DNA of 30,340 nucleotides from a virus. Shown piece by piece: positions 1 through 30,305 of this stretch (positions are counted from its first letter, which is position 1; the number at the start of each line of letters is the position of its first letter). Made by a program: the position numbers and the translations under genes. The notes below the pieces were generated by a model. The model ran no database searches. It was not told where the DNA came from and saw nothing but the letters and a program-made list of their open reading frames with translations. The stretch covers positions 1-30,340 of the IMG/VR virus record IMGVR_UViG_3300030107_001753; one strand, 5' to 3'.

Positions 1-687
1 ACTAAAGACGCTTTCATTCAAGCTATAGGCTCACACAATGTGGCTACATTAGAAGAAATGTCAGAACTACATTTATATGATTTTGGTATATTTATAGAAC
101 TTCAGCCAGATGAAGAAGAAAAAGCTATGCTTGAAAACAATATTCAAATGGCTTTACAACAAAAAAATATAGAATTAGAAGATGCTATAGACGTTAGAGA
201 AATAAAAAACATAAAGCTAGCAAATCAAATTTTAAAAATAAGAAGAAAGAAAAAACAAAACAATGACAGACGTATACAATTAGAAAATATACAAGCGCAA
301 TCTCAAGCTAATTCTCAAGCGGCTCAACAAGCCGCACAAGTAGAGATACAAAAAGATCAATCATTATCACAATCAAAAGCTCAATTAGCTCAAGTCCAAG
401 CCCAATTAGATATGCAAAAAATGCAACAAGAAGTTGAAGCTAAAAAACAATTAATGGAACTAGAGTTTAATTACAATATGCAACTTAAAGGCCTTGAAGT
501 TGATAATATGAAAAACAGAGAAAAACAAAAAGAAGATAGAAAAGATGAAAGAACTAAAATCCAAGCCTCGCAACAGTCAGAGCTTATTGATCAAAGAAAA
601 ACAGGTAAACCACCTAAAAACTTTGAATCAGCAGGTAATGATATTATAGGTGGAGGTTTTGATTTAGAGGCTTTTGAGCCTAAATAA
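1..687 (+). CDS. Portal protein, C-terminal part (5' end outside window)
   Basis: The reading frame is open from base 1, so this is the tail end of a longer gene; the GTG at 40 is an internal valine and not a credible start. The visible 228 residues begin with a compact alpha/beta piece (LHLYDFGIFIELQPDEEEK) and a helical stretch with the pattern 'LEDAIDVREIKNIKLANQILKIRRKKKQ'. From memory this matches the end of portal proteins of crAss-like and marine Bacteroidetes phages. A long Gln/Ala/Lys-rich coiled coil follows (about residues 95-200), as in the portal barrel region. The last ~25 residues hold FESAGND (bases 622-642), a motif repeated in the next protein. The portal forms the dodecameric DNA channel at one capsid vertex. 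Its place directly before a scaffold-like gene and the capsid gene supports the call. Identity rests on remembered family resemblance and synteny, not on a search. Confidence 0.72.
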   Translation, partial: TKDAFIQAIGSHNVATLEEMSELHLYDFGIFIELQPDEEEKAMLENNIQMALQQKNIELEDAIDVREIKNIKLANQILKIRRKKKQNNDRRIQLENIQAQSQANSQAAQQAAQVEIQKDQSLSQSKAQLAQVQAQLDMQKMQQEVEAKKQLMELEFNYNMQLKGLEVDNMKNREKQKEDRKDERTKIQASQQSELIDQRKTGKPPKNFESAGNDIIGGGFDLEAFEPK

Positions 688-716
688 AAATTTATTAACT
701 ATTATTATATTATATT

Positions 717-1901
717 ATGGAAGAAAACAAAGAAAACGTAGTTGAAGAAACTACACAACAAGAAACAACTGAACAAGTTGATGAAAGTAAATTTGAGTCT
801 GCTGGTAACGATGACGTTATAAAAGTAGATTTAAGTAAACCAACAAAACCAAAAGAAAATGAAATTAAAGAAGATAACGCTGACGACGGCGGAGTGGTTA
901 CAGAGTCTAAAGATGCCGAGCCCACAGAAAAACAAGAAGAAGTACAGCCGGAGACTGAAGCACAAGAAGCTCCAGTATTAGAAGAGATTACTGAAGACTC
1001 TACAGAAGAAGAAATTACTGAAGTAGAAGAAAAGATTGAAGAAGCTGTAGTTGAAGCAAAGTCTACTGGTGAACCATTACCAGAAAATATTCAAAAGTTA
1101 ATGGACTTTATGGAAGAAACCGGTGGTGATATACAAGATTACGCAAGATTAAATCAAGATATAAGTAAGTTAGATGACAATAGCGTTTTATATGAATATT
1201 ATAAACAAACTAAACCTCATTTAACTACAGATGAAATAAACTTCCTTATGGAAGATTCTTTTTCTTACGATGAAGAAGTTGACGAAGAAAGAGATATTAA
1301 AAGAAAAAAACTAGCATTAAAAGAGCAAGTTGCCAGTGCTAGGTCCTACTTGGACGGGCAAAAGTCCAAATACTATGAAGAAATTAAAGCTGGTTCAAAG
1401 CTTACGCAAGAACAACAAAAAGCTGTTGATTTTTTTAATAGATACAACAAGGAGTCAGAGGCTACAAAAAAGACTGTAGAAAATAACACTAGAATATTTG
1501 ATCAAAAAACAAATAATCTTTTTAATAACAAATTCAAAGGTTTTGAATATAACGTTGGTGATAAAAAGTTTAGGTTTAACGTAAAAGATGTTGATAGTGT
1601 TAAAAAAATACAAAGCGATTCTAATAATTTTATGACAAAGTTTGTTGATAAAAACCTCGCTTTAACAGATGCTAAAGGGTATCACAAGTCTTTATTTACA
1701 GCTATGAATGCCGATGCTATTGCTAATCATTTTTATGAGCAAGGTAAAGCTGATGCTTTAAAAGAAAGTATTGCTAAATCTAAAAACATAAACATGGATC
1801 CGCGTCAGTCTCAAGGTACAATTGAAGCTGGTGGAATAAAAGTAAAAGTATTAGGTGATAATTCTTCTGATTTTAAGTTTAAAATTAAAAACAATAAATA
1901 A
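717..1901 (+). CDS. Putative scaffolding (prohead assembly) protein
   Basis: 394 residues. The first ~120 are extremely rich in Glu, Asp and Thr and look disordered. The middle (~120-330) is mainly charged helix, with a stretch 'LALKEQVASARSYLDGQKSK' that could form a coiled coil. The C-terminus is basic (ending FKFKIKNNK), a common way for scaffold proteins to bind the capsid shell. No enzyme motif was seen. It lies 29 bases after the portal gene and 19 before the capsid gene, the usual place for a scaffold. The ATG at 717 is the only sensible start; its leader is pure A/T with TATTATATT directly before it and no Shine-Dalgarno sequence. Residues 26-32 read FESAGND, as in the portal C-terminus. 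The scaffold role is inferred from position and composition; a head-decoration or core protein is possible. Confidence 0.55.
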   Translation: MEENKENVVEETTQQETTEQVDESKFESAGNDDVIKVDLSKPTKPKENEIKEDNADDGGVVTESKDAEPTEKQEEVQPETEAQEAPVLEEITEDSTEEEITEVEEKIEEAVVEAKSTGEPLPENIQKLMDFMEETGGDIQDYARLNQDISKLDDNSVLYEYYKQTKPHLTTDEINFLMEDSFSYDEEVDEERDIKRKKLALKEQVASARSYLDGQKSKYYEEIKAGSKLTQEQQKAVDFFNRYNKESEATKKTVENNTRIFDQKTNNLFNNKFKGFEYNVGDKKFRFNVKDVDSVKKIQSDSNNFMTKFVDKNLALTDAKGYHKSLFTAMNADAIANHFYEQGKADALKESIAKSKNINMDPRQSQGTIEAGGIKVKVLGDNSSDFKFKIKNNK

Positions 1902-1920: not shown

Positions 1921-3429
1921 ATGGCAATTACTGCAGGAAGTGCGTTGAACAGTGCGCCTACGCATAGGCAACAAACACTAGCAACAAACTATTTAGATTT
2001 CAACCAAGATATGGGTTGGGCTCAACAATACCTGCCAGACTTGATGGAAAAAGAAGCTGAGGTTTTCGGACCTAGAACAATTTCTGGTTTCCTTGCTCAA
2101 GTTGGTGCAGAAGAGGCTATGACATCTGATCAAGTTGTCTGGTCTGAACAATCAAGATTACACCTATCTTATTTAGGTAATATATCTGCTCATTCAGGTG
2201 GTACATCAGCATCTGGTGAAATTACATTAGAAGCTGATATTGACGGAAACACTGCCAATATAGCTACTCATGGTATTAGAGTTAACGATTTAATTATCGT
2301 TGCTAATAAGCTTGGTACAGCTAAATGTATCGTTAGAAAAGTAGAAGCGTCTGGTGGAGTTATCGATGTAGCTCCTTATGGATTAGCTAACTTGTCTACT
2401 TTAGAATTAACTACTTCAAAAGCTACTACTATATTAGTTTATGGTTCTGAATTTGACAAAGGTGAGCAGTACAGAAGTGCTACCGCTGAAGCTACACAAT
2501 CTTCTACAAGAGGTGCTAATGAGCCTTCTTTCAAAACTTTTGACAACAAGCCAATCATTATGAAAGATTACTACGAGGTATCAGGATCTGATTCTTCTAG
2601 AATTGGTTGGGTTGAAGTATCTGCTGAAAATGGTCAATCAGGTTACCTATGGTACTTAAAAGCTGAGGCTGACACAAGAGCTCGTTTCACTGACTACATT
2701 GAAATGGCTATGTTAGAGTCTGAGCTTGGTGTTAGCGGTACAGACGATGTTGATGATTTCTTAGGAGCTGCTAGAGCAACTGCTGCTACTGGTCAAGCTA
2801 CAGGTACTGAAGGTTTATTCGCTGCTATAACTTCAAGAGGTAACGTTACTAATGGTGTAACAGGTGTTAATCCTGCTACTGATTTAGCTGAATTTGACGC
2901 TATCTTAGCTGAGTTTGATAAGCAAGGTGCTATTGAAGAATACATGATGTTTGTTAACAGATCTACTAGCTTAGCTATGGATGATATGTTAGCTTCTATG
3001 AATTCTTATGGAGCTGGTGGTACATCTTACGGTGTATTTAACAACTCTGAAGATATGGCATTAAATTTAGGTTTTACTGGTTTCAGAAGAGGTTCTTATG
3101 ACTTCTATAAGTCTGACTTTAGATACTTAAATGATAAAGCTACAAGAGGTGGTATTAACGATGCTGCTGGTGCTGGATCTGCAATAAGAGGGGTTATGAT
3201 TCCTGCTGGTACTTCTTCAGTTTATGATCAAACTGTTGGACAAAGCATGAAGCGTCCTTTCTTACACGTAAGATATAGAGCTTCACAAACTGATGACCGA
3301 AGATTAAAAACTTGGGTTACTGGTTCTGTTGGTGCTGCTACATCTGCATTAGACGTTATGCAACTACATTTCTTAACTGAAAGATGTTTAATCACTCAAG
3401 GTGCTAACAACTTTATGTTAATGAAGTAA
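1921..3429 (+). CDS. Major capsid protein (HK97-fold type)
   Basis: 502 residues, starting MAITAGSALNSAPTHRQQTL. It is recognisable by the block at about residues 228-250 (GWVEVSAENGQSGYLWYLKA followed by EADTRARF), which I associate with the major capsid proteins of crAss-like phages and relatives infecting Bacteroidetes. The region around residues 60-175 is beta-rich and may be an insertion domain. Composition is balanced (Ala, Gly, Ser, Thr), unlike the Lys/Glu-rich neighbours. Codon use also differs: synonymous choices include more C-ending codons (TTC, AAC, GAC), as expected for the most highly expressed virion gene. It lies after portal and scaffold and is followed by a very strong terminator hairpin, again typical of a capsid gene. 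The N-terminus shows no clear pro-peptide, and no prohead protease is in view. Confidence 0.85.
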   Translation: MAITAGSALNSAPTHRQQTLATNYLDFNQDMGWAQQYLPDLMEKEAEVFGPRTISGFLAQVGAEEAMTSDQVVWSEQSRLHLSYLGNISAHSGGTSASGEITLEADIDGNTANIATHGIRVNDLIIVANKLGTAKCIVRKVEASGGVIDVAPYGLANLSTLELTTSKATTILVYGSEFDKGEQYRSATAEATQSSTRGANEPSFKTFDNKPIIMKDYYEVSGSDSSRIGWVEVSAENGQSGYLWYLKAEADTRARFTDYIEMAMLESELGVSGTDDVDDFLGAARATAATGQATGTEGLFAAITSRGNVTNGVTGVNPATDLAEFDAILAEFDKQGAIEEYMMFVNRSTSLAMDDMLASMNSYGAGGTSYGVFNNSEDMALNLGFTGFRRGSYDFYKSDFRYLNDKATRGGINDAAGAGSAIRGVMIPAGTSSVYDQTVGQSMKRPFLHVRYRASQTDDRRLKTWVTGSVGAATSALDVMQLHFLTERCLITQGANNFMLMK

Positions 3430-6713: not shown

Positions 6714-9700
6714 ATGCCAGAGATTAAGAACACTTTTGTTCAAGGTAAAATGAATAAAGACCTTGACGAAAGATTATTACCAAACGGACAGTATAGAGAT
6801 GCAATGAACGTTCAAGTTGCTACTTCTGAAGGGGCAAATGTTGGGACTGTTCAAAATGTATTAGGTAATGAGCTTCGTGGAGGCGTAACTGGTAATTGTG
6901 TTGGATCTATTGCAGATGAAAAAAATAATAAACTATATTGGTTTGTTCGTGTAAATGATTCTTTAAACGCTATATATGAGTATACAGAAGGTCAAAATCC
7001 AATACCTGTTTTTATTGATCATCACAATGTATTAGAGTTTGGTGATAGAATTATTACTGGTATAAATATAGTTGATGACTTTTTATTCTGGACAGATGGT
7101 TTTAACGAACCTAAAAAAATTAATATAACAAGAAGTAAACTAGGTACTATAAACGACACAACTCATACTAAACTTGTGGTTAATGACGCTATTGTTCAAG
7201 ATGCTAATGGTAATGTTGATATACAAAAAGAACACATTACGGTAATAAAAAAGAAACCTACTTCTAAGTTAAACGTAGAAATAATAACAAGTAGCGCTAT
7301 AACAAAACCTAGTTTATTTGAAAAAACTTTATCTAGACTTTCATATAGATATAAATACGAGGACGGAGAGTATTCTGCTTTTGGTCCGTTTACAGACGTT
7401 ATCTTTCAGCCTTTATATCCTACAGGCATAAATCAATCTAACTATTTTACTTCAAAAGAACCTTACAATTTAACTATGCTTAATAGTATAGAGTCTTTAA
7501 ACGTATATGACTTTGTAGCTCCTGACACACCCAAAGACGTTGTTCAAGTTGATATTTTATATAAACAAGAAAACTCACCTGTTGTATATTCTATAACTAG
7601 TATAAAAAAAGACTCTAATTATTGGAATGATTATGGTTACAGACAAGGTGAACCCACTACTTCTAATTATTCAAAATACAGTGGTAAATATTCAGTAACT
7701 TCAGAAAACATTTATGCGGCTGTTCCAGAAAATCAATTATTAAGAATTTATGATAATGTACCTAGAAGTGCTTTAGCTCAAGAAATAACAGGTAGTAGAT
7801 TAGTTTACGGAAACTATATTCAAAACTACGATATAAGTGATAAGCCAGAAATATATGTTGATTACGGTAATAGATTAAATTATATACCAAGCGTAAGTCA
7901 AGAGTTCTATACTTTTCCAGCTAACGTATTAAAATCAATAAAGTCACAAAGAAACTATCAGTTAGGTATAGTTTTTGGTGATAAATATGGTAGAGAAACA
8001 CCTGTATTTTCTTCAACAGAATCTGCTGTTAAAATACCTTGGGAGTCTGGTAGTGTAAAATCAGCTAGTCAATCTCACCAACTAAAAGCTTATGTGTCTT
8101 CAAATATACCGACTTGGGCTGATTATTATAAGTTTTATATAAAACAAACTTCTAGCGAATATTATAATTTAGTAATGGACAAGGCTTACACACCTACAGA
8201 AGATGTTGATAAAGAAGAAAGAGAACACTTGTGGATATCTTTTAATTCGTCTGATAGAAACAAAGTAAACGAAGAAGATTACTTAATAATAAAGAAAAAA
8301 CTAGACTCTGCTACTCAATTTAGCACAGAAAATAGATTTAAAATATTAGGTATAGTTAACGAGGCTCCTGACGCTATAAAATTTAAATATAAAATATTAG
8401 GACAACACGATAATAAAACTACAGGTGATTACGATGGGGTATTAGATGGTAATCCTATTGGTACTAGTTTAACGCACGATGCTAGTTTAGTTCCAAAAGG
8501 TTTATACACGAAATATCAATCAGCTAATTCACAAACACCTTTAAGATTTGATATAACAGGTTGTAACACTATAGTTTTAAACAAAGAGAATTTTGAAGAC
8601 CTTGATAATGGTGGCGCTTCTTTAATATCAACTGATACAAGACATAATGAAATAAAAGATTTATATATTTCTTGGTTTAAAACAGAAAATAGTAACGTTT
8701 ATAAATCTAGAAGATATAGAATAGTTAGTATAATGGTAAATGCTGATTCTTCTGCTTTTGGCTTACCCAACATGACAGAAGCTGAATATATAATTAAACT
8801 AGAAAATCAAGTCAACGCTACTGATGCTGATATAGCTAAACACGCTACAGACACTGGCACACATCCTAGATTAAATGAAAATCTTACTGTTACTATAGAA
8901 AGAAAAGATTTAAAAGACATGGATCAGTTTTCTGGTAGATTTTTTGTTAAAATAGTAAGTGATCCTAAGTCTGATGAATTACAACAACAACCTGGTACAG
9001 AGTCTTTAGTAACTTATACTGTAGAAGAGCAAGCAGGTAGTTATTGGTTTGCTGACGATCCTTTAACAACTGATTCTAAGTTACAAGATACTACCCTCAC
9101 GCACACTTTACCAGCTTCAGGAAGCAATAATCTTGCAATTGAAATTGCAGGTACTACTATTTCTGTAAATAATTATGTTCATTGGGGTTATCTTTTGGAC
9201 CACGCTACACTTAATGGTAATAGATTTTTTATTGATAATTTGCTTTTCCGTGCAGGTCAAAATGACCCTAGTAATTCTTATGCTAAAAACTCTGGAGAAG
9301 TTCTTGCTGGCGCTAGATGGACTTACGGCCAAATAACATGGAGTAACACTATAGACGTAGATCAAAAAATGCCACCTACAAAAATATTAAGTAATGGCTC
9401 TGATTACTATGCTGTTGAAGATCCAGAATATTGGGAAGATGATTTAAAGAAAAACTACTGGCCTAGAGTACTTAGTGCTCAGTTAGACTCTCCTAGTCAA
9501 ACTGTTTGGCAAGGAAACAATACTCGTTGGGAGAATATAGTTAGAGTTTGGACTAGTGGATCAAATATAAATAGTCATGATGGTGCTTGGGACGATTACG
9601 AAGAGCGATATAGCAACGAGTTTGATGGTAATGATGGTGAAGATACTTTTTCACCTTATTATTTAACTAGAGAAAAAGCAACTTCAAGATGGAAGCCTTA

Positions 9701-12700
9701 TGCTAAAGACTCTAGTCTTGGCTGGTATTATGAAGATACATTGGTTGGAGATCAACAACCAAATGTCAACGGTTGGTTAGCTATACCTCAAGACCCTAGT
9801 GATGTAGCGCTTTTACAAAGCACAAACTGGTCACCTATGTTTTCTATAACTCCAGGTGCTGTTGATCCTTTTTGGTCAACCTTACACGGTACTACTCATA
9901 GTGTTGGTGGTGCTCCAAACTGTATGGAGGGTATTGTTGTGACAGACGACGTACACACAAGTAGTGATCCTTTGATAGGTCGTAGAAGGTGGAGACAAGA
10001 AGGTGATATTACTACTAGCAATAGTTTTCCTAGCGACGTATATGGTACAACCGGTGGTAAGGTTTTTATGCATTTATCATTTTTAGGTCCAGGTAAAGAT
10101 TTAGTTCCAGATCCTATAGATTTAGTAGGTGTTAAAGCTACTGGTTATAATAGTTTAGCTAAAAAATTACAAGGTATTTGGGGTGGTGGTGTTTTTGTAC
10201 CTGATTCTTATGTTGGTAATAACACTTTATTAAACGACTCAGACCCAACAAAAGGCTCAGATAATTTTGTTGTAGAAATGGAAGGTAATTACGTTCAGAG
10301 TTCTGGTGATGATAGAGCTGATAGCAATTTTTATACAGAACCAATTGCGCCAGGTCCTGGTGTAGGTCAAGGTTACGACCTAGCATATCAAGAGCTACAC
10401 GAAAAACAATGGGATATAGATTTTCCTAGTACAACTGAATCACAAGCTAACGCACGTTTTGCAGACATGTTAAAAGTTCCTGGTACTCAATTTAGATTTA
10501 GTGCTGATCCAGATGGTATTGTTTATACTGTCAACGCTTGCACTGTAAAACGTTTATATAACCATACTTCTTGGAGAAAAAGATATGATTGGGGAACAAA
10601 CAATAGTCCTCCAACAACAAATTTAGGTGTAGGTAGTATTGAAAAAAACTCTATTGATTGGGCAAAACGTATAGGAACAGCCGATGAAATTACATACGCG
10701 GGTCACCTGAAAACGATGATAACGCAGTTTGGTAAAGCGAGTAATAGAAGGTTGGTGTTTATATTAGAACTTGATAAGGACCCCACAGATGCGGCTGTAT
10801 CTCCTAATTTTAATCCTTGCGATGCGGCAAACGGTTTAACAGCTAATATTGCTTCAGAAATACAAATTGTAACTTCAGGCTCGTATAATCTTTTAGGCGA
10901 AATTTCTTCAATACCAACTATATTTGAAACAGAACCAAAAAGCGACTCTGGTTTAGATGTTTATTACGAAGCTTCTGGAGCTGTTCCTAGTAGAATAAAC
11001 GCAGATAATAATGAAATATTTGCACCTATAGGTTGTAAAGTTGAAATAGTAAACGCTGATGGAACGTTATTTGGTTTAGCTAGAACTAGTATTAATTATA
11101 TTACTGAAGACATAATATTAAATAACTGGAGTGACACCAACCCGTTACAAGTATTTTTTACTAATAGAGTTGGAGACGCTGGTTTTAATAAATTTGATAA
11201 TCAAGGTAATGAAATAGATTATACTAATAAATATATAAGATTTTATAGAGTTGATGGTAGTTATACAACTGCTCAAATAAACTCGCCGGAGGAAAATATA
11301 GATTATAGTGGTGGTACTAACAATGTAATAAACTCTTTTAGCATATTAGAATCAACTCAAAACATGGAGGCTGGTTTAAGTTGGTATAATTGTTTTTCAT
11401 TTGGTGATGGAGTAGAGTCTGATAGAATTAGAGATGACTTTAATGAAATGAGGATCACAAATGGAGCTAGAGCGTCTACAACTACAGAAGAGCCTTACGA
11501 AAGAGATCATAGAAAACACGGTTTAATATTTTCAGGTTTATATAACTCTAACTCTAGTTTAAACGAGTTAAATCAGTTTGTAATGGCTGAAAAAATAACA
11601 AAAGATATAAATCCTACTTATGGTAGTATTCAAAAACTGTTTAGTAGACAAACAGACTTAATAACATTTTGTGAAGATAGAGTTGTAAAAATATTAGCAA
11701 ATAAAGACGCTGTATTTAATGCTGATGGTAATCCGCAGTTAACAGCTAATATAAACGTGCTAGGTCAAACTATTCCTTTTATAGGTGACTATGGTATATC
11801 GCAAAACCCAGAGTCTTTTGCTAAAGAATCTTATAGAGCTTATTTTGCTGATAGACAAAGAGGCGCTATATTAAGATTATCAAAAGATGGATTAACTCCT
11901 ATATCAGAGGCTGGTATGCACGATTGGTTTAGAGATAACTTAAGGTATGCTGACAATATTATAGGTAGCTACGATGCGTATAAAAGAAATTATAATGTAA
12001 CTTTAAAAGATGCCATAGCTACAAACTTAATAACAAACACTGATATATCACAAGGTGTTACACTATTAGAAACTATTGTTCCTGATGTTAATTATTCTAG
12101 TAATCCTACAGGAACTATTTTTGATGAATCTACTATGAGATTTAATTTGCCAGGCGATGGTTACCAACCTTGGGTTAATCCTTCTGACCAATTTGTTTCA
12201 AACTACATGAATCCTAATTTACTATCGCATGTAGTTATAAGGGAATATCCTTTTATTGGCCAACATACTTTTCAAGCGCCTATAGCAGCAGGTACCGTTT
12301 ATAGCCCCTCTAGTTCTGAAAGTTATACTAAATTTCAAAATAATTGGAATAACAACACTAATAGGTATATGGCTATTTATGGTGGTCTTACTAACGGTTT
12401 TAACAACGTTACTGGCAACCCTCCACATAAGCACAGTAGAACGTTTAATGGTGTCGATATTATAGACACGCCGGGTAATTCTGGAACACCAAATAATGGT
12501 ATAAACGCAGCTCAAGCTACAACACTTTTTAATAGAAATATTTTTCACGTTGGCCAATCAGACATGACTGGTTTAGGTTTGTCACCTTCTGGTGGTGGTG
12601 GTACTACGGATGGTGAAGAGTATGGATATGATGAGGGCATAGTTTTTTACAGCTATCCACCTTATGATCAAAATATAACTTTATTACCTACTGATTATTT

Positions 12701-15700
12701 ATCTCACGACGATTATATTACTTTTCCAAAAGATTTTCCAAACGATTTAACAACTATATCAAATAACTTTTTTACTGGTACTTATATTTTAGATTATACC
12801 GCTAACGCATTATCTACGGGTGCAACAGGTTTATTTAATACTGGTATTAATGGTGCGCCTATGAAACCAACTACCGTGTTTAATGGTGAAGTTGTTTATT
12901 TCAAAATAGAATGGTATACACCAAGGTACATGGAAATGGCTCAAGGACCTTATGATAATGTAAACGGTCCATCACTTAACATCCCGTCTACGCCAAGTGC
13001 AAATAAACCGGGTTCTGGTGTTTATAAAGGTTTTACAATAAAATTACATGACGGTACGCCTGCTGCTGACGGTTCAAGTGTTATTAGTTCTGATATACTT
13101 ATGTCAGCTGCTGATATGCAGATTACAGATTCTACAAGCCATTTTGATTTTAATCCTTACCAATCTTTAGACTACAAAACCTCAGGTACTATTATCACCG
13201 GAGGAATAAGTTCAGATGAAGATTATGCTGGAGAAACATTTTATGAAGCAGCGTTTAAATTTAAAGACCCTAACGGTAATGAGGTGAGCGCTATAGCTGT
13301 GCAAGACTTACAAATCACAATACACCCTAGGTATACTGATGCTCAAGGTAACGAGTTAACAGATCCTCGACACCATATAGGTTCTATGGTTGTGACTAAG
13401 CTTGAATTAAAAAAACAGTATAGATTAGAAAACGTAGGTACACCTGCTATTGTTGCTCAATACGACGTACCGGGTTTACCAGAAAACGACGTGCTTGCTT
13501 GGACAGAAGTTATTATACCTGAATTACCTGCTTATTGGCAAAGTCCTACTACGTCGCTTACAAGTTATTTAACTATGACAGAATCTGAAAGCTATTATGG
13601 TCTTTCAAATCCTCCTACAGAACGTGTAGAAGATAAAATATTTCAAAATATATCAACTGGAGTATACACTATTACGCCTGGTGGACTTAAATGGTATGAA
13701 GGTGTTGACAACGGGGTTACTGGTTATAGAGATACTTATTCTCTTCCAAACTACATTTATTTTCCAGAAGCAGATCCTAATCATATTTTTAATGTTGAAC
13801 TTGCTCCTTATGATAACATTGATGACGACACTAATGATGTTTATTTTAACCAAGGAGATGATTTTATACATCAGACAGGTATAGACGAAACAATTAATAT
13901 TGATGCTAGTAACGTTGATGTTATGCTTAGATTTGCGCCTGTAGATAGCGCTGGTGCTCAAACGTCGCTAGAAAAAGGCGCTTGGTACTGCGTGGACGTT
14001 TGGGAAGACGAAGATGGTTTAGATCCCGTAGTTAATGGAACTTGGAGCCAAGCCGCTACAGGTAAAATATATGTTAAAGGCGTTTGTAATAACAATTTAA
14101 ACAACGGTAATGTTCAAGGTAATTATTTAAGTACCTTAGATTGGGGTACCGGTGGTACTATTATACAACAATATCCAGTTGGTCATGTAGGTAGAATATT
14201 AAACACCGGTATTACATATTTAAATACTTTCACTCCAGAAATGTCTATACAGCTAGAAACTTACAAACCAAATATAAAAGGTTCTACTGAAGCAAGTGGT
14301 GTTTGGACTTTAGTTAACGGTGTAGATAGAAACAACATTGATACAAGAACTTATGGTAGTTGGCATAATCAAGGTAGTTATAGAGCGATATTTCAGCTAC
14401 ATGCTAATAGTACTGTATGTGACGCTGGTATACCTCAATATTTTGATATAGTTTTTTCTAATGTACAAATTGACGTACAAAAAATAACAATTACAAAAAT
14501 ACAAAATCCAACACAAACAGATAATACTAGTGATGAGTATGGAGACGTTTCAGACGTAGTAGGTTCTAATTTACTACCAACTATAAGCTCTTCTGCACCT
14601 TGGATAACTAATGACGCGTGGAGAGGAACTAATGACGGCGGTGTTAAAATGCTTGGTTTTAGACAAGGTTTACAAGATCCTAAAGTTTATTATTTAAAAG
14701 ACGCTGCTTACGCTAATTATGGCGGTTTAAATTTTGATTCTTATGCTTATCAAGTTAATTATGACGCGTCTAATAATCAAGAAAACCCAGGTGATAACGC
14801 AACTTGGCATTACCACTTTAACGATCACGCGACTATTACCTCGCCACACACAGGAACACAAAACGCTCCTACACAAAGCGATGATGGTTGGGAGTTGTCA
14901 TTTAGCGTAAACCCAGGACTAAATAAATTTGGTACACCAAGAGCAGATATAGAAGGAGGTTTTTATGGTTATGTAGCCGGTAAGATTAATAGTGGTAATT
15001 TTGATGGTTTTGCTTTTAACAATATACAACATATTGGTGATTACAAAATAATAGGTAATATTTCTAGCACGCAAACTGGTAATCCTTATGAAATACTAAT
15101 AAAGCAACCAGGTAGCGTTGATTACGAGCCTTACAACACTATAAACGGATTAAGTACAGTAGGTACTATATCTTCAGTGTTGTCTAACATAAGCTTGAGT
15201 ACAAACGAAAATGAAGCTCAAGTTAGATTTGGTTCTCTTAGTTCACCATCACAAGCTTTTGTTGGTGCTATAGATAATATATATTTAAAAGACATAACTA
15301 GTTATTTTACTGGTGGTAGTGCTAACTCTTGGAGTTTTCAAGGTTTTGACACAACTGATGATGACTTTATATTCTTTGACGATACAGATCCTTCAAATCC
15401 AGTTATAACTTTTAATAATGCTCCTATGTACACACCTGGAGTTTTAACACCTACTATCGCAGATAGAATACAACTTACACAAGCTATATCGACAACAGCT
15501 TCTATTGGAGATAATTTTTTAATTGAGTTTGAGTTTAATAATATTACAGGTGGTAGAATTCAAGGTTATTATTTTAATTCTGCTGGAAAAGGATTTAGAT
15601 TTTATTCTTATCCAGCCTCTGGCTTAAATGGCTCTGGGTATTATAGTAGATTACACACAATAGGAGATGATGATATAGTAAGTGGTGAGCTAGTAAACAC

Positions 15701-16466
15701 TTTAGTTATTTATGTTGAAAGCGGAGTAGTTAGTGGTAGTATAGATAATATAAGAATGTTAACTCAATTTGAGTTATTACCAAGACACTTACAGGCTAAT
15801 CCTGATGATAATCCAGATAGATTATCACCAACAACTTTAAGTTACAATGAAGACGTTAGAGGTTGGGTTAGTTTTAAATCTTACATACCAGAACAAGGTT
15901 TAAGTTTAACTAAAAAGTATTATACTATTAGTGGCGGTAATCTACACGAGCACCATGTTGAAGGCCAAGAACGAAATCGTTTTTATAACACTTACATAGA
16001 GTCTTCTTTAACCGCTGTATTAAATCAAGAACCATCTATTGTTAAAACATTTAACACTTTAAATTATGAAGGAACTCAGTCAAGAATAAATCAATTTGAA
16101 GTAGATAGTAACACTGGTTTGAGTAATATAAAACCTTATAATATTTCTAATAAAACTGGTTGGTATGTTGACAATATAAGAACAGACAAGCAGAGTGGTA
16201 ATATACAAGAGTTTGTAGAAAAAGAAGGTAAATGGTTTAACTATATAAATGGTGATTTAAACGCTCCAATATCAACATCAGAGTTTAGCTTTCAAGGTAT
16301 AGGAACAGTATATAGTATTGTAAGTACTACTGCAACACCAATAACAGGACCTTCGGGCTCACCACCAACAGCTGCGCCTTTAAGCCCACCGCCACCAACA
16401 ACAACAACAAACGGTGGTAATGGTGGTAATGGTGGTAACGGCTCAGGTGGAGGCGGAACTTATTAA
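6714..16466 (+). CDS. Giant tail 'stabilization'-type protein with large insertions
   Basis: 3250 residues, the largest gene here. The opening (FVQGKMNKDLDERLLPNGQY, then RDAMNVQV and GTVQNVLGN) is a signature I associate with the stabilization proteins of crAss-like phages, thought to be related in role to P22 gp10. Propeller-like repeats follow (62-145), then a fibronectin-like stretch (~207-235) and 'GIVFGDKYGRETPVFSS' (~417). A second conserved block at about 1600-1765 contains 'FCEDRVVKILANKDAVFNAD' and 'YRAYFADRQRGAILRLSKDG'. A third, at about 3038-3185, contains 'DVRGWVSFKSYIPEQGLS' and 'VKTFNTLNYEGTQS'. Between these lie roughly 1000 and 1270 residues of apparently lineage-specific beta-rich sequence, including likely jelly-roll domains at about 2725-2860 and 2862-3015. 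It ends in a Pro/Thr then Gly/Asn low-complexity tail. Probably it forms the neck/tail hub and displays host-binding domains. There is no stop or frameshift throughout. Confidence 0.72.
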   Translation: MPEIKNTFVQGKMNKDLDERLLPNGQYRDAMNVQVATSEGANVGTVQNVLGNELRGGVTGNCVGSIADEKNNKLYWFVRVNDSLNAIYEYTEGQNPIPVFIDHHNVLEFGDRIITGINIVDDFLFWTDGFNEPKKINITRSKLGTINDTTHTKLVVNDAIVQDANGNVDIQKEHITVIKKKPTSKLNVEIITSSAITKPSLFEKTLSRLSYRYKYEDGEYSAFGPFTDVIFQPLYPTGINQSNYFTSKEPYNLTMLNSIESLNVYDFVAPDTPKDVVQVDILYKQENSPVVYSITSIKKDSNYWNDYGYRQGEPTTSNYSKYSGKYSVTSENIYAAVPENQLLRIYDNVPRSALAQEITGSRLVYGNYIQNYDISDKPEIYVDYGNRLNYIPSVSQEFYTFPANVLKSIKSQRNYQLGIVFGDKYGRETPVFSSTESAVKIPWESGSVKSASQSHQLKAYVSSNIPTWADYYKFYIKQTSSEYYNLVMDKAYTPTEDVDKEEREHLWISFNSSDRNKVNEEDYLIIKKKLDSATQFSTENRFKILGIVNEAPDAIKFKYKILGQHDNKTTGDYDGVLDGNPIGTSLTHDASLVPKGLYTKYQSANSQTPLRFDITGCNTIVLNKENFEDLDNGGASLISTDTRHNEIKDLYISWFKTENSNVYKSRRYRIVSIMVNADSSAFGLPNMTEAEYIIKLENQVNATDADIAKHATDTGTHPRLNENLTVTIERKDLKDMDQFSGRFFVKIVSDPKSDELQQQPGTESLVTYTVEEQAGSYWFADDPLTTDSKLQDTTLTHTLPASGSNNLAIEIAGTTISVNNYVHWGYLLDHATLNGNRFFIDNLLFRAGQNDPSNSYAKNSGEVLAGARWTYGQITWSNTIDVDQKMPPTKILSNGSDYYAVEDPEYWEDDLKKNYWPRVLSAQLDSPSQTVWQGNNTRWENIVRVWTSGSNINSHDGAWDDYEERYSNEFDGNDGEDTFSPYYLTREKATSRWKPYAKDSSLGWYYEDTLVGDQQPNVNGWLAIPQDPSDVALLQSTNWSPMFSITPGAVDPFWSTLHGTTHSVGGAPNCMEGIVVTDDVHTSSDPLIGRRRWRQEGDITTSNSFPSDVYGTTGGKVFMHLSFLGPGKDLVPDPIDLVGVKATGYNSLAKKLQGIWGGGVFVPDSYVGNNTLLNDSDPTKGSDNFVVEMEGNYVQSSGDDRADSNFYTEPIAPGPGVGQGYDLAYQELHEKQWDIDFPSTTESQANARFADMLKVPGTQFRFSADPDGIVYTVNACTVKRLYNHTSWRKRYDWGTNNSPPTTNLGVGSIEKNSIDWAKRIGTADEITYAGHLKTMITQFGKASNRRLVFILELDKDPTDAAVSPNFNPCDAANGLTANIASEIQIVTSGSYNLLGEISSIPTIFETEPKSDSGLDVYYEASGAVPSRINADNNEIFAPIGCKVEIVNADGTLFGLARTSINYITEDIILNNWSDTNPLQVFFTNRVGDAGFNKFDNQGNEIDYTNKYIRFYRVDGSYTTAQINSPEENIDYSGGTNNVINSFSILESTQNMEAGLSWYNCFSFGDGVESDRIRDDFNEMRITNGARASTTTEEPYERDHRKHGLIFSGLYNSNSSLNELNQFVMAEKITKDINPTYGSIQKLFSRQTDLITFCEDRVVKILANKDAVFNADGNPQLTANINVLGQTIPFIGDYGISQNPESFAKESYRAYFADRQRGAILRLSKDGLTPISEAGMHDWFRDNLRYADNIIGSYDAYKRNYNVTLKDAIATNLITNTDISQGVTLLETIVPDVNYSSNPTGTIFDESTMRFNLPGDGYQPWVNPSDQFVSNYMNPNLLSHVVIREYPFIGQHTFQAPIAAGTVYSPSSSESYTKFQNNWNNNTNRYMAIYGGLTNGFNNVTGNPPHKHSRTFNGVDIIDTPGNSGTPNNGINAAQATTLFNRNIFHVGQSDMTGLGLSPSGGGGTTDGEEYGYDEGIVFYSYPPYDQNITLLPTDYLSHDDYITFPKDFPNDLTTISNNFFTGTYILDYTANALSTGATGLFNTGINGAPMKPTTVFNGEVVYFKIEWYTPRYMEMAQGPYDNVNGPSLNIPSTPSANKPGSGVYKGFTIKLHDGTPAADGSSVISSDILMSAADMQITDSTSHFDFNPYQSLDYKTSGTIITGGISSDEDYAGETFYEAAFKFKDPNGNEVSAIAVQDLQITIHPRYTDAQGNELTDPRHHIGSMVVTKLELKKQYRLENVGTPAIVAQYDVPGLPENDVLAWTEVIIPELPAYWQSPTTSLTSYLTMTESESYYGLSNPPTERVEDKIFQNISTGVYTITPGGLKWYEGVDNGVTGYRDTYSLPNYIYFPEADPNHIFNVELAPYDNIDDDTNDVYFNQGDDFIHQTGIDETINIDASNVDVMLRFAPVDSAGAQTSLEKGAWYCVDVWEDEDGLDPVVNGTWSQAATGKIYVKGVCNNNLNNGNVQGNYLSTLDWGTGGTIIQQYPVGHVGRILNTGITYLNTFTPEMSIQLETYKPNIKGSTEASGVWTLVNGVDRNNIDTRTYGSWHNQGSYRAIFQLHANSTVCDAGIPQYFDIVFSNVQIDVQKITITKIQNPTQTDNTSDEYGDVSDVVGSNLLPTISSSAPWITNDAWRGTNDGGVKMLGFRQGLQDPKVYYLKDAAYANYGGLNFDSYAYQVNYDASNNQENPGDNATWHYHFNDHATITSPHTGTQNAPTQSDDGWELSFSVNPGLNKFGTPRADIEGGFYGYVAGKINSGNFDGFAFNNIQHIGDYKIIGNISSTQTGNPYEILIKQPGSVDYEPYNTINGLSTVGTISSVLSNISLSTNENEAQVRFGSLSSPSQAFVGAIDNIYLKDITSYFTGGSANSWSFQGFDTTDDDFIFFDDTDPSNPVITFNNAPMYTPGVLTPTIADRIQLTQAISTTASIGDNFLIEFEFNNITGGRIQGYYFNSAGKGFRFYSYPASGLNGSGYYSRLHTIGDDDIVSGELVNTLVIYVESGVVSGSIDNIRMLTQFELLPRHLQANPDDNPDRLSPTTLSYNEDVRGWVSFKSYIPEQGLSLTKKYYTISGGNLHEHHVEGQERNRFYNTYIESSLTAVLNQEPSIVKTFNTLNYEGTQSRINQFEVDSNTGLSNIKPYNISNKTGWYVDNIRTDKQSGNIQEFVEKEGKWFNYINGDLNAPISTSEFSFQGIGTVYSIVSTTATPITGPSGSPPTAAPLSPPPPTTTTNGGNGGNGGNGSGGGGTY
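16413..16439 (+). repeat. Three tandem 9-base units at the C-terminal end of the giant tail gene
   Basis: The unit GGTGGTAAT occurs three times (the last ends in C), coding for Gly-Gly-Asn repeats. It follows an ACAACAACAACA run coding for a Thr tract. Together they form a flexible C-terminal tail (PPPPTTTT, then GGN repeats, then GSGGGGTY). Slippage would change length in frame. Confidence 0.85.
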
Positions 16467-29264: not shown

Positions 29265-30305
29265 ATGAAAAGATTATTATTATTATTACTTACACTGTGT
29301 ATAGCATTGTCTGCTAGTTCACAAGATTTTAAAAAATATTTTAAATTTGCTACGTTTTATGGTGCTGTTAGTGGTGGAACTTCTATATCAGATGTAGATG
29401 TATATTCAGTTGCAAACGGTTTAGAAACTCAAACAGTAAAAACCCCGTTTGACTACAACATAGCTTTTGGTGTTAGAAAAATAGCTAGGTTTGGTTATGA
29501 AAATAGAGCTAATACTTTTTATGATGGTACAGAAACTTCTTTTTCAGATGCTGCTACTATAGGTAAAATAAGTGGCTTAGAGTTTTTATTTGAGGCTGAT
29601 ATGAAAAGACAAGAAGGCGTAGAGTACTTAGATCAAAATCATTTTATAAGATATGTAGCTGACAAATGGATTGCTAAAGTTGAGTATTTAGTTGACGGTT
29701 TTGCGGACGTAGAATACTTTGAAGCTTCTCAAAGATATAGGTATAAAGTTAGTAATAAGTTTTCTATAAACATAGGTGCCTCACAAAGAATAGCAGAGCC
29801 TTATGGGTATAATCCATTAGACGAGTGGGTATTAAGTAATGGTGATATACACTACACTTATTTAGCTTTACAAGAAGGTTATAACGTAGATGTGTTTAAC
29901 AATGAGTATTACGATCCACAAGGAAATTTAGTAGCAACAAGTAAAGATGTATGGGAATCTGTAATAATACCTAATATACTCTCTGATTATGTGGAACGTA
30001 AAAGAGATGAGTTACCTGCTGAGTGGAATTATTCTTTAGTGTTAGGTTTTGATTATTATCATTATACTAAAACTTTTTGGTTACACTCTTGGGCAAATGT
30101 ATTACCTTATCATCACGATATAGGTTCTAAGTACTCTTATCACAAGTATAATAACAATGAGCAATGGTATGATTATTCAGGAGGATTAATACTTGGTTAC
30201 AAACTAAATAAACATTTAGGTATGTTTGTAGAAGGAAAATATAATAAATACTGGAATCGTGAGTGGCATGATTTCAAGTTTGGAATTAACTATGTAATAT
30301 TTTAA
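29265..30305 (+). CDS. Secreted, probably outer-membrane beta-strand protein
   Basis: 346 residues. The start MKRLLLLLLTLCIALSASSQ is a classical signal peptide with likely cleavage after S19 and a Gln at the new N-terminus, a style common in Bacteroidetes. Cys12 does not sit in a lipobox. The mature part is rich in Tyr, Phe, Trp and Asp, with many alternating hydrophobic/polar stretches suited to a transmembrane beta barrel: 'YNIAFGVRKIARFGYE', 'KWIAKVEYLVDGFADVEYFE', 'FSINIGASQRIAEPYGY' and 'GLILGYKLNKHLGMFVEGKY'. The C-terminus ends in F after alternating F337, F339, I341, Y343 and I345, resembling barrel closing strands. The start codon comes 1 base after the giant gene's stop. It would be exported and inserted in the host envelope; superinfection exclusion, help with lysis, or a virion role are all possible. 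Barrel topology is inferred. Confidence 0.65.
   Translation: MKRLLLLLLTLCIALSASSQDFKKYFKFATFYGAVSGGTSISDVDVYSVANGLETQTVKTPFDYNIAFGVRKIARFGYENRANTFYDGTETSFSDAATIGKISGLEFLFEADMKRQEGVEYLDQNHFIRYVADKWIAKVEYLVDGFADVEYFEASQRYRYKVSNKFSINIGASQRIAEPYGYNPLDEWVLSNGDIHYTYLALQEGYNVDVFNNEYYDPQGNLVATSKDVWESVIIPNILSDYVERKRDELPAEWNYSLVLGFDYYHYTKTFWLHSWANVLPYHHDIGSKYSYHKYNNNEQWYDYSGGLILGYKLNKHLGMFVEGKYNKYWNREWHDFKFGINYVIF

Follow-up and report, generated by a model that had tools for sequence, protein, structure and literature searches.

Portal proteins throughout a family of Bacteroidota podoviruses carry, close to their C-terminus, a short conserved box that is almost certainly a functional peptide, and in part of one marine clade a look-alike of this box is found near the N-terminus of the protein encoded next, a putative scaffold. 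We infer, with a probability of roughly 0.4, that both boxes dock onto one acceptor during prohead assembly. The box is conserved, lies in disordered protein ends, is restricted to portal and scaffold, and has had independent codon histories in the two.

The stretch of DNA analyzed here (the window) comprises 30,340 of the 37,337 bases of record IMGVR_UViG_3300030107_001753, from an uncultured virus. It opens with a portal gene cut at its 5' end, followed by genes for a 394-residue acidic protein and the major capsid protein (1921..3429, + strand; phrog_13704, E 7.4e-96), and then by further virion genes. Relatives were gathered using the major capsid protein as an anchor, which yielded 80 loci in the window's clade and 210 outside of it, plus annotated records. 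The capsid protein search matched 85 phage records, and the named relatives among them, all <60% identical, were Flavobacterium Elemovirus phages, Maribacter phage Panino, Cellulophaga Callevirus phages, and MW202828. Judging from these relatives, the window most likely stems from a podovirus-like phage of a marine Bacteroidota host. Where relatives encode the large virion structural protein (of 1324 residues in phi38:1 and roughly 1490 in elemoF), the window has a protein of 3250 residues (6714-16466), more than twice that length. Directly following the virion genes are a 346-residue protein with a signal-peptide-like start (29265-30305), which by eye has the look of an outer-membrane barrel and matches no family, and a short thioredoxin-like protein (L002:164-520; a sub-threshold match), likewise with a signal-peptide-like start. 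Beyond the window, at about 30862-32880 of the record (L002:522-2540), lies the gene of a secreted protein of 672 residues, the C-terminus of which holds a sorting domain for type IX secretion (TIGR04183, E 2.9e-9; PF18962, E 1.4e-10), suggesting that it is exported by the T9SS of the host.

The portal tail box

The window holds the C-terminal 228 residues of the portal (1..687, + strand; 5' end outside the record), which match positions 605-824 of the 827 in the phrog_6547 profile (E 3.9e-36) and are 51% identical to a portal annotated as P22-like. The portal fold was assessed on a full-length relative (L003), the model of which (pTM 0.65) has a helix at 651-780 and then a disordered tail at 783-808 that holds the box, with pLDDT <50 throughout this tail after the 130-residue barrel helix. 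A profile search of solved structures with the portal found none, and Foldseek returned the phicrAss001 portal gp20 (PDB 7qoi, E 1.8e-23; also 7qog) and P22-type portals as the closest solved folds, gp20 being a weak homologue in sequence (profile E 3e-8). The window portal is placed by these matches in the phrog_6547 family as a barrel portal of the P22-crAss type. Both gp20 and the P22-type portals extend a long C-terminal barrel into the head, as is predicted here, and thus, by homology, the tail box would sit at the inner end of the barrel, within the head. The C-terminus of gp20, as examined here, has no FES box, whereas the barrel helix of the present family ends in a conserved, disordered tail box.

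In the window, this box reads FESAGND (622..642, + strand), its phenylalanine being homologous to F788 of the L003 portal. The sequence-only reading had located it correctly but had the portal end in ...FDLEAF, when the actual end is ...FDLEAFEPK. Portal tails of the window's clade carry F[ED]S[AST][GS][ND]D in 74 of 79 cases, usually followed by ILGGGFDLGxF, and FES is found in 153 of the 181 portals from outside the clade, as FES[NTS]ED[ST]LDGFDLAEFEPR. The FES box is also present in the tails of elemo, Panino, and MW202828, and more distant tails read IDFRSGNTSITGDL in phi38:1 (FRS) and IDFSKKFSLESL in phi18:3. The box phenylalanine is invariant in an alignment of 28 diverse portals. Across 67 distinct marine portal tails, F and S occur in 67/67 and E in 64/67, and the corresponding figures for the other-family tails carrying the box are 117/117 and 116/117. 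In two other clades the box residues are fixed and their codons vary freely, which argues for selection on the protein. The conservation of the portal peptide across homologues was therefore borne out, with strong protein-level selection throughout the family, and we picture the last 25 or so residues as a flexible, inward-facing docking peptide of the form x-F-E-S-x-x-D-...-[FG]-[DS]-L that would be kept throughout the family. Two portals (L115 and L126) have the tail unit twice, with an extra copy, IDFQNSEDDLDGF, upstream of MNFESNEDSLDGF, a behavior known from modular peptides. Three loci of the window's clade (L045, L048, and L054) have a portal tail without the box (KNFEEEEEGTDMGSILFA-like) together with a strongly basic scaffold N-terminus (KIKVKKPKKKKS-like), and the two traits are possibly linked.

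The look-alike box of the putative scaffold

The protein encoded next (717..1901, + strand; 394 residues) is a putative scaffold by its gene order, acidity, and helicity, as it is encoded between the portal and coat genes, has an acidic, disordered N-terminus, and is largely helical in its model. It had no match in PHROG or Pfam, its profile search of solved structures returned unrelated proteins only, and its model gave no usable Foldseek match, with the P22 scaffold appearing only at E 9.7. We also tried crAss001 gp31 as a scaffold homologue and rejected it for having no detectable similarity. On whether the protein leaves the mature virion, as a scaffold would, the annotations are divided: a homologue in phage phi40:1 is annotated as structural from MS/MS and the homologue in phi18:3 is not so annotated; phi18:1 gp92, which is cited in the phi38:1 annotations, is absent from the 65-feature phi18:1 record. 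The AlphaFold2 model is weak (mean pLDDT 68, pTM 0.36, about 50 at the motif), and residues 1-100 are disordered, pLDDT reaching ≥50 only at 23-36, which covers the box and the start of the VIKVDL peptide that follows it. Both boxes are thus in ends predicted to be disordered, in agreement with the sequence-only reading.

The scaffold box occupies residues 26-32 (792..812, + strand). Together with the portal box it accounts for two FESAGND-coding 21-nt stretches, versus zero expected from shuffled window DNA, and the two differ synonymously at four of seven codons (GAA/GAG, TCA/TCT, GCA/GCT, AAT/AAC), the coordinates and the codon differences being just as the sequence-only reading had them. 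Some pair among the 14 proteins of the window shares a 7-mer in 9.9% of shuffle trials, and the portal-scaffold pair alone shares a 6-mer in 190 of 20,000 (about 1%). Thus, judged from the window alone, the match is weak evidence and only suggestive; it is the family's sequences that make it solid.

Among the 73 distinct scaffold N-termini in the window's clade, 29 have an F[EDKQ]S box compared with 0.7 in shuffles, an excess that is inflated by shared cassette ancestry. Outside the clade, an F[ED]S box is found in 0 of 152 distinct N-termini, and scaffolds there start MEIKVREV- or MEFKVRAL-like. Within the clade, the N-termini come in three interchangeable forms, namely KF[ED]SAG[ND]DSVIKVDLSKP, two strand units (DNVTKVDL..DDNVIKVDL), and KPNINEDGDYVVNLSKP. 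The VIKVDL strand peptide (residues 34-39; 816..833, + strand), the counterpart of the [FI]KV strand with which scaffolds of the family start, is present in both the FxS and the double-strand cassettes and is older than the box directly before it. The letters of the box range over FKSVDDD, FDSYEDP, FESKDNP, and FESAGND, and the exact FESAGND, found only in the scaffolds of the window, L341, and L368, stands at one end of this range, the general form being a looser F-x-S-x-x-[DN]-[DP]. A disordered-region box is therefore conserved in portals, and in scaffolds it is found in about 40% of one clade. Homologous portal-scaffold pairs, which the sequence-only reading had put forward as the test of its idea, accordingly gave a divided answer: the portal peptide is conserved, but it stands without a scaffold partner in the other clades and in about 60% of its own.

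The resemblance is nonetheless specific to these two proteins. A search of about 1.09 million residues for F[ED]S[AS]G found 70 portals, 18 scaffolds, and one other ORF, and among the loci kept from a database scan with an FES-x-GND pattern, the matches lay in 115 portals, in two scaffolds, in one short fragment resembling a portal, and in a single ORF unrelated to either. The ten best non-portal matches of a profile of the clade's portal tails were scaffold N-termini, and the fourteen best non-scaffold matches of a profile of the scaffold box were portals, with this reciprocal resemblance being confined to 7-8 residues. A profile of non-marine portal tails did not find scaffolds among all ORFs, so the resemblance is limited to the clade. 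In 20 records searched whole, there were 21 pattern matches, all consistent with a portal tail or a scaffold start, and the proposal to look for the box in other virion proteins accordingly turned up none. The T4 capsid targeting sequence is a short terminal peptide that brings proteins into the prohead; it resides on cargo, whereas the present box is on portal and scaffold only and cleavage is not indicated. A T4-like cargo-targeting peptide was rejected, as no other protein in the 20 whole records has the box.

A serious rival is that docking is genuine for the portal tail alone and that the scaffold likeness is coincidental, an acidic, Ser/Ala/Gly-rich disordered segment before VIKVDL having drifted through FxS forms until one of them matched the 7-mer of the portal. 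The breadth of the scaffold letters, the rarity of the exact 7-mer, the chance level of a shared 7-mer among the window's proteins (P about 0.10), and the lack of a scaffold box in most relatives would all be expected from such drift. It sits less easily with the reciprocal best profile matches and, even allowing for the inflation, with the number of boxes in the clade. Moreover, the F and S of the scaffold box are invariant across the cassette despite two unrelated Ser codon families (AGC/AGT in 22 boxes and TCT in 7, compared with TCN in all portals examined), and a serine kept through a change of codon family favors selection on the residue.

Silent-site conservation beneath the portal box

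Within the window's clade, the portal box is overlain by a nucleotide-level conserved island (CTAAAAACTTTGARTCNKCAGGTAATGATATA; 614..647, + strand), which is the strongest synonymous-constraint window of the portal gene and lies 80-105 bases upstream of the scaffold start, as measured from the Phe codon. Its silent sites are nearly fixed at codons -3, -2, and +3 to +7 of the clade's portals (CCT at P(-3) in 51/51, GGT in 64/65, AAT in 68/68, and ATA in 58/59), and the codons for F, E, and S vary. Since other clades fix the residues without fixing the codons, whereas this clade fixes silent sites, FES reads as a protein motif family-wide, and the AGND-I codons flanking it appear to also carry a DNA or RNA function in the window's clade. 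The island may have a regulatory role or may mark a recombination junction beside the often-swapped scaffold cassette.

These findings raise the question of whether the portal AGND owes its fixation chiefly to a DNA or RNA element that overlaps it. Such an element (a promoter, a processing site, a hairpin, or a recombination junction) would serve the scaffold gene, which lies 55-80 bases downstream, and the scaffold match would then be partly accidental. We consider this unlikely. The near invariance of codons +3 to +7 beside the variable F, E, and S codons, the top rank of the constraint windows, and the frequent swapping of the downstream cassette are what such an element would produce, but other clades keep FES at the protein level without silent constraint, the scaffold boxes use different codons, and the island occurs once per record examined, with no second copy in its own record or in the clade loci. 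A repeated promoter was rejected for want of that second copy and of any sigma-70-like match overlapping the island within 400-2100, and an RNA hairpin was unconvincing, the fold energy being no better than that of shuffles (z -0.51). One pair of the potential stem exchanges C-G to T-A in 13 rows, and the other pairs break.

Acceptors, cassette exchange, and assembly

Supposing that the two boxes do share an acceptor, our candidate lies within the scaffold, in its conserved C-terminal domain, an assignment that is more doubtful than the sharing. The scaffold model has a strand at residues 34-37, and its only other strands of at least three residues form a conserved beta-hairpin at 275-280/283-288 (residues 275-288; 1539..1580, + strand). 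Across 70 scaffolds, F273, G275, and F276 show no variation. Because there are no other such strands, addition of the N-terminal strand to this hairpin, in cis or in trans, is the likely reading and a lead to follow, the pairing having been deduced from DSSP assignments. Because it presents the tag 12 times, the portal ring would on this view look to the scaffold like a preformed partner and would seed assembly.

In place of the scaffold domain, both boxes could engage a third internal partner, i.e., an ejection or cargo protein or the capsid protein, and of these a cargo acceptor is the strongest alternative if an acceptor is shared at all. In P22-type portals, the wing binds scaffold, and ejection proteins attach to the barrel and crown (PMC13386823), so that a tail at the barrel tip might serve cargo instead, and the portal of phicrAss001 carries a bound cargo domain on the inside of the head (PMC10172136). 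The portal tail, predicted to emerge where the barrel ends inside the head, would be well placed for such a partner. However, no cargo protein in the 20 whole records has the tag. We looked for residues in scaffold, portal, and capsid protein that co-vary with the scaffold box and obtained strong raw associations, which correspond to ≤9 independent pairs on supported branches, too few to point at any partner. A third partner, which would be one form of the shared-acceptor reading and compatible with it, is in our estimate unlikely.

Counting against shared docking of any kind is that the box is missing from about 60% of the clade's scaffolds and from those of all other clades, while the portal box is kept, which means that the scaffold box is not needed for assembly. 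We envision the scaffold copy as optional, because relatives exchange the box for a second [IT]KV strand unit. The idea of a shared docking peptide for a third partner, as originally put forward, hence draws support from the flexible ends, the selection on the portal, and the restriction of the box to the two proteins, and is weakened by the many portal-only relatives and the variable scaffold letters.

The presence of the scaffold box requires 19, 13, and 13 changes on trees of the capsid protein, the scaffold C-terminal domain, and the portal, respectively, and at least 14, 9, and 7 of these changes are forced by well-supported branches. The N-terminal segment has thus often been swapped or lost, and the switching of cassettes, seen at 717-900 and in clade relatives, suggests recombination at the portal-scaffold junction. 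One could also imagine that the scaffold box was copied or gene-converted from the portal 3' end into the adjacent scaffold 5' end, which we deem improbable. The genes are neighbors, and just 2 of 21 bases, both silent, separate the scaffold box of the window from the portal box of its close relative L003. Most scaffold boxes, however, encode Ser by AGC and are 6-13 bases, out of 21, away from the box of their own portal, and the flanks do not match. Given TCN serines in portals and AGY serines in most scaffold boxes, a plain copy of portal DNA fails to explain most of the clade's scaffolds. The earlier assertion that the match is not a recent DNA copy consequently holds for most of the clade and is weaker for the window itself. 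A processing role, also raised earlier, with both peptides as prohead protease cleavage sites, has nothing beyond the location in flexible ends in its favor and is very improbable, as most scaffolds lack the site and the annotations of three relatives show no prohead protease in the region of the head genes.

In its complete form, our proposal would have the scaffold mimic the inward tail of the portal, both engaging one acceptor, plausibly the scaffold domain, with the portal seeding and the scaffold extending the assembly, and with the cassette being exchanged at a conserved DNA junction; all of these parts holding together is rather unlikely. Portal-scaffold docking as such is known from tailed phages. 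During P22 gp1-gp8 and HK97 nucleation, the portal is recruited via scaffold contacts, and the gene order of portal, putative scaffold, and coat is the same here. In HK97, the portal wing contacts scaffold coiled coils (PMC10275583), and the described portal-scaffold contacts use the wing domain (PMC13386823, PMC10275583), whereas here a short peptide is common to the portal tail and the scaffold. Pervagoviridae (Callevirus phi38:1 and phi40:1), Elemovirus, Panino, and MW202828 share these three genes as homologues in identical order, and their putative scaffolds are without an F[ED]S box. The exact string FESAGND was not found in the searchable literature, nor did we find literature combining portal protein, scaffolding protein, short linear motif, and procapsid, and the family-wide portal tail box appears to be undescribed. 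If function is confirmed, the peptide conserved on the portal tail, together with its incomplete echo on the scaffold, would be a new form of such docking. A seven-residue box kept on the portal tail and echoed on the scaffold would give a small, mutable handle on an assembly step in an abundant, little-studied group of Bacteroidota viruses, and even if the scaffold echo is coincidental, the portal tail box can be tested in the cultured Flavobacterium phage elemoF and Cellulophaga phage phi38:1.
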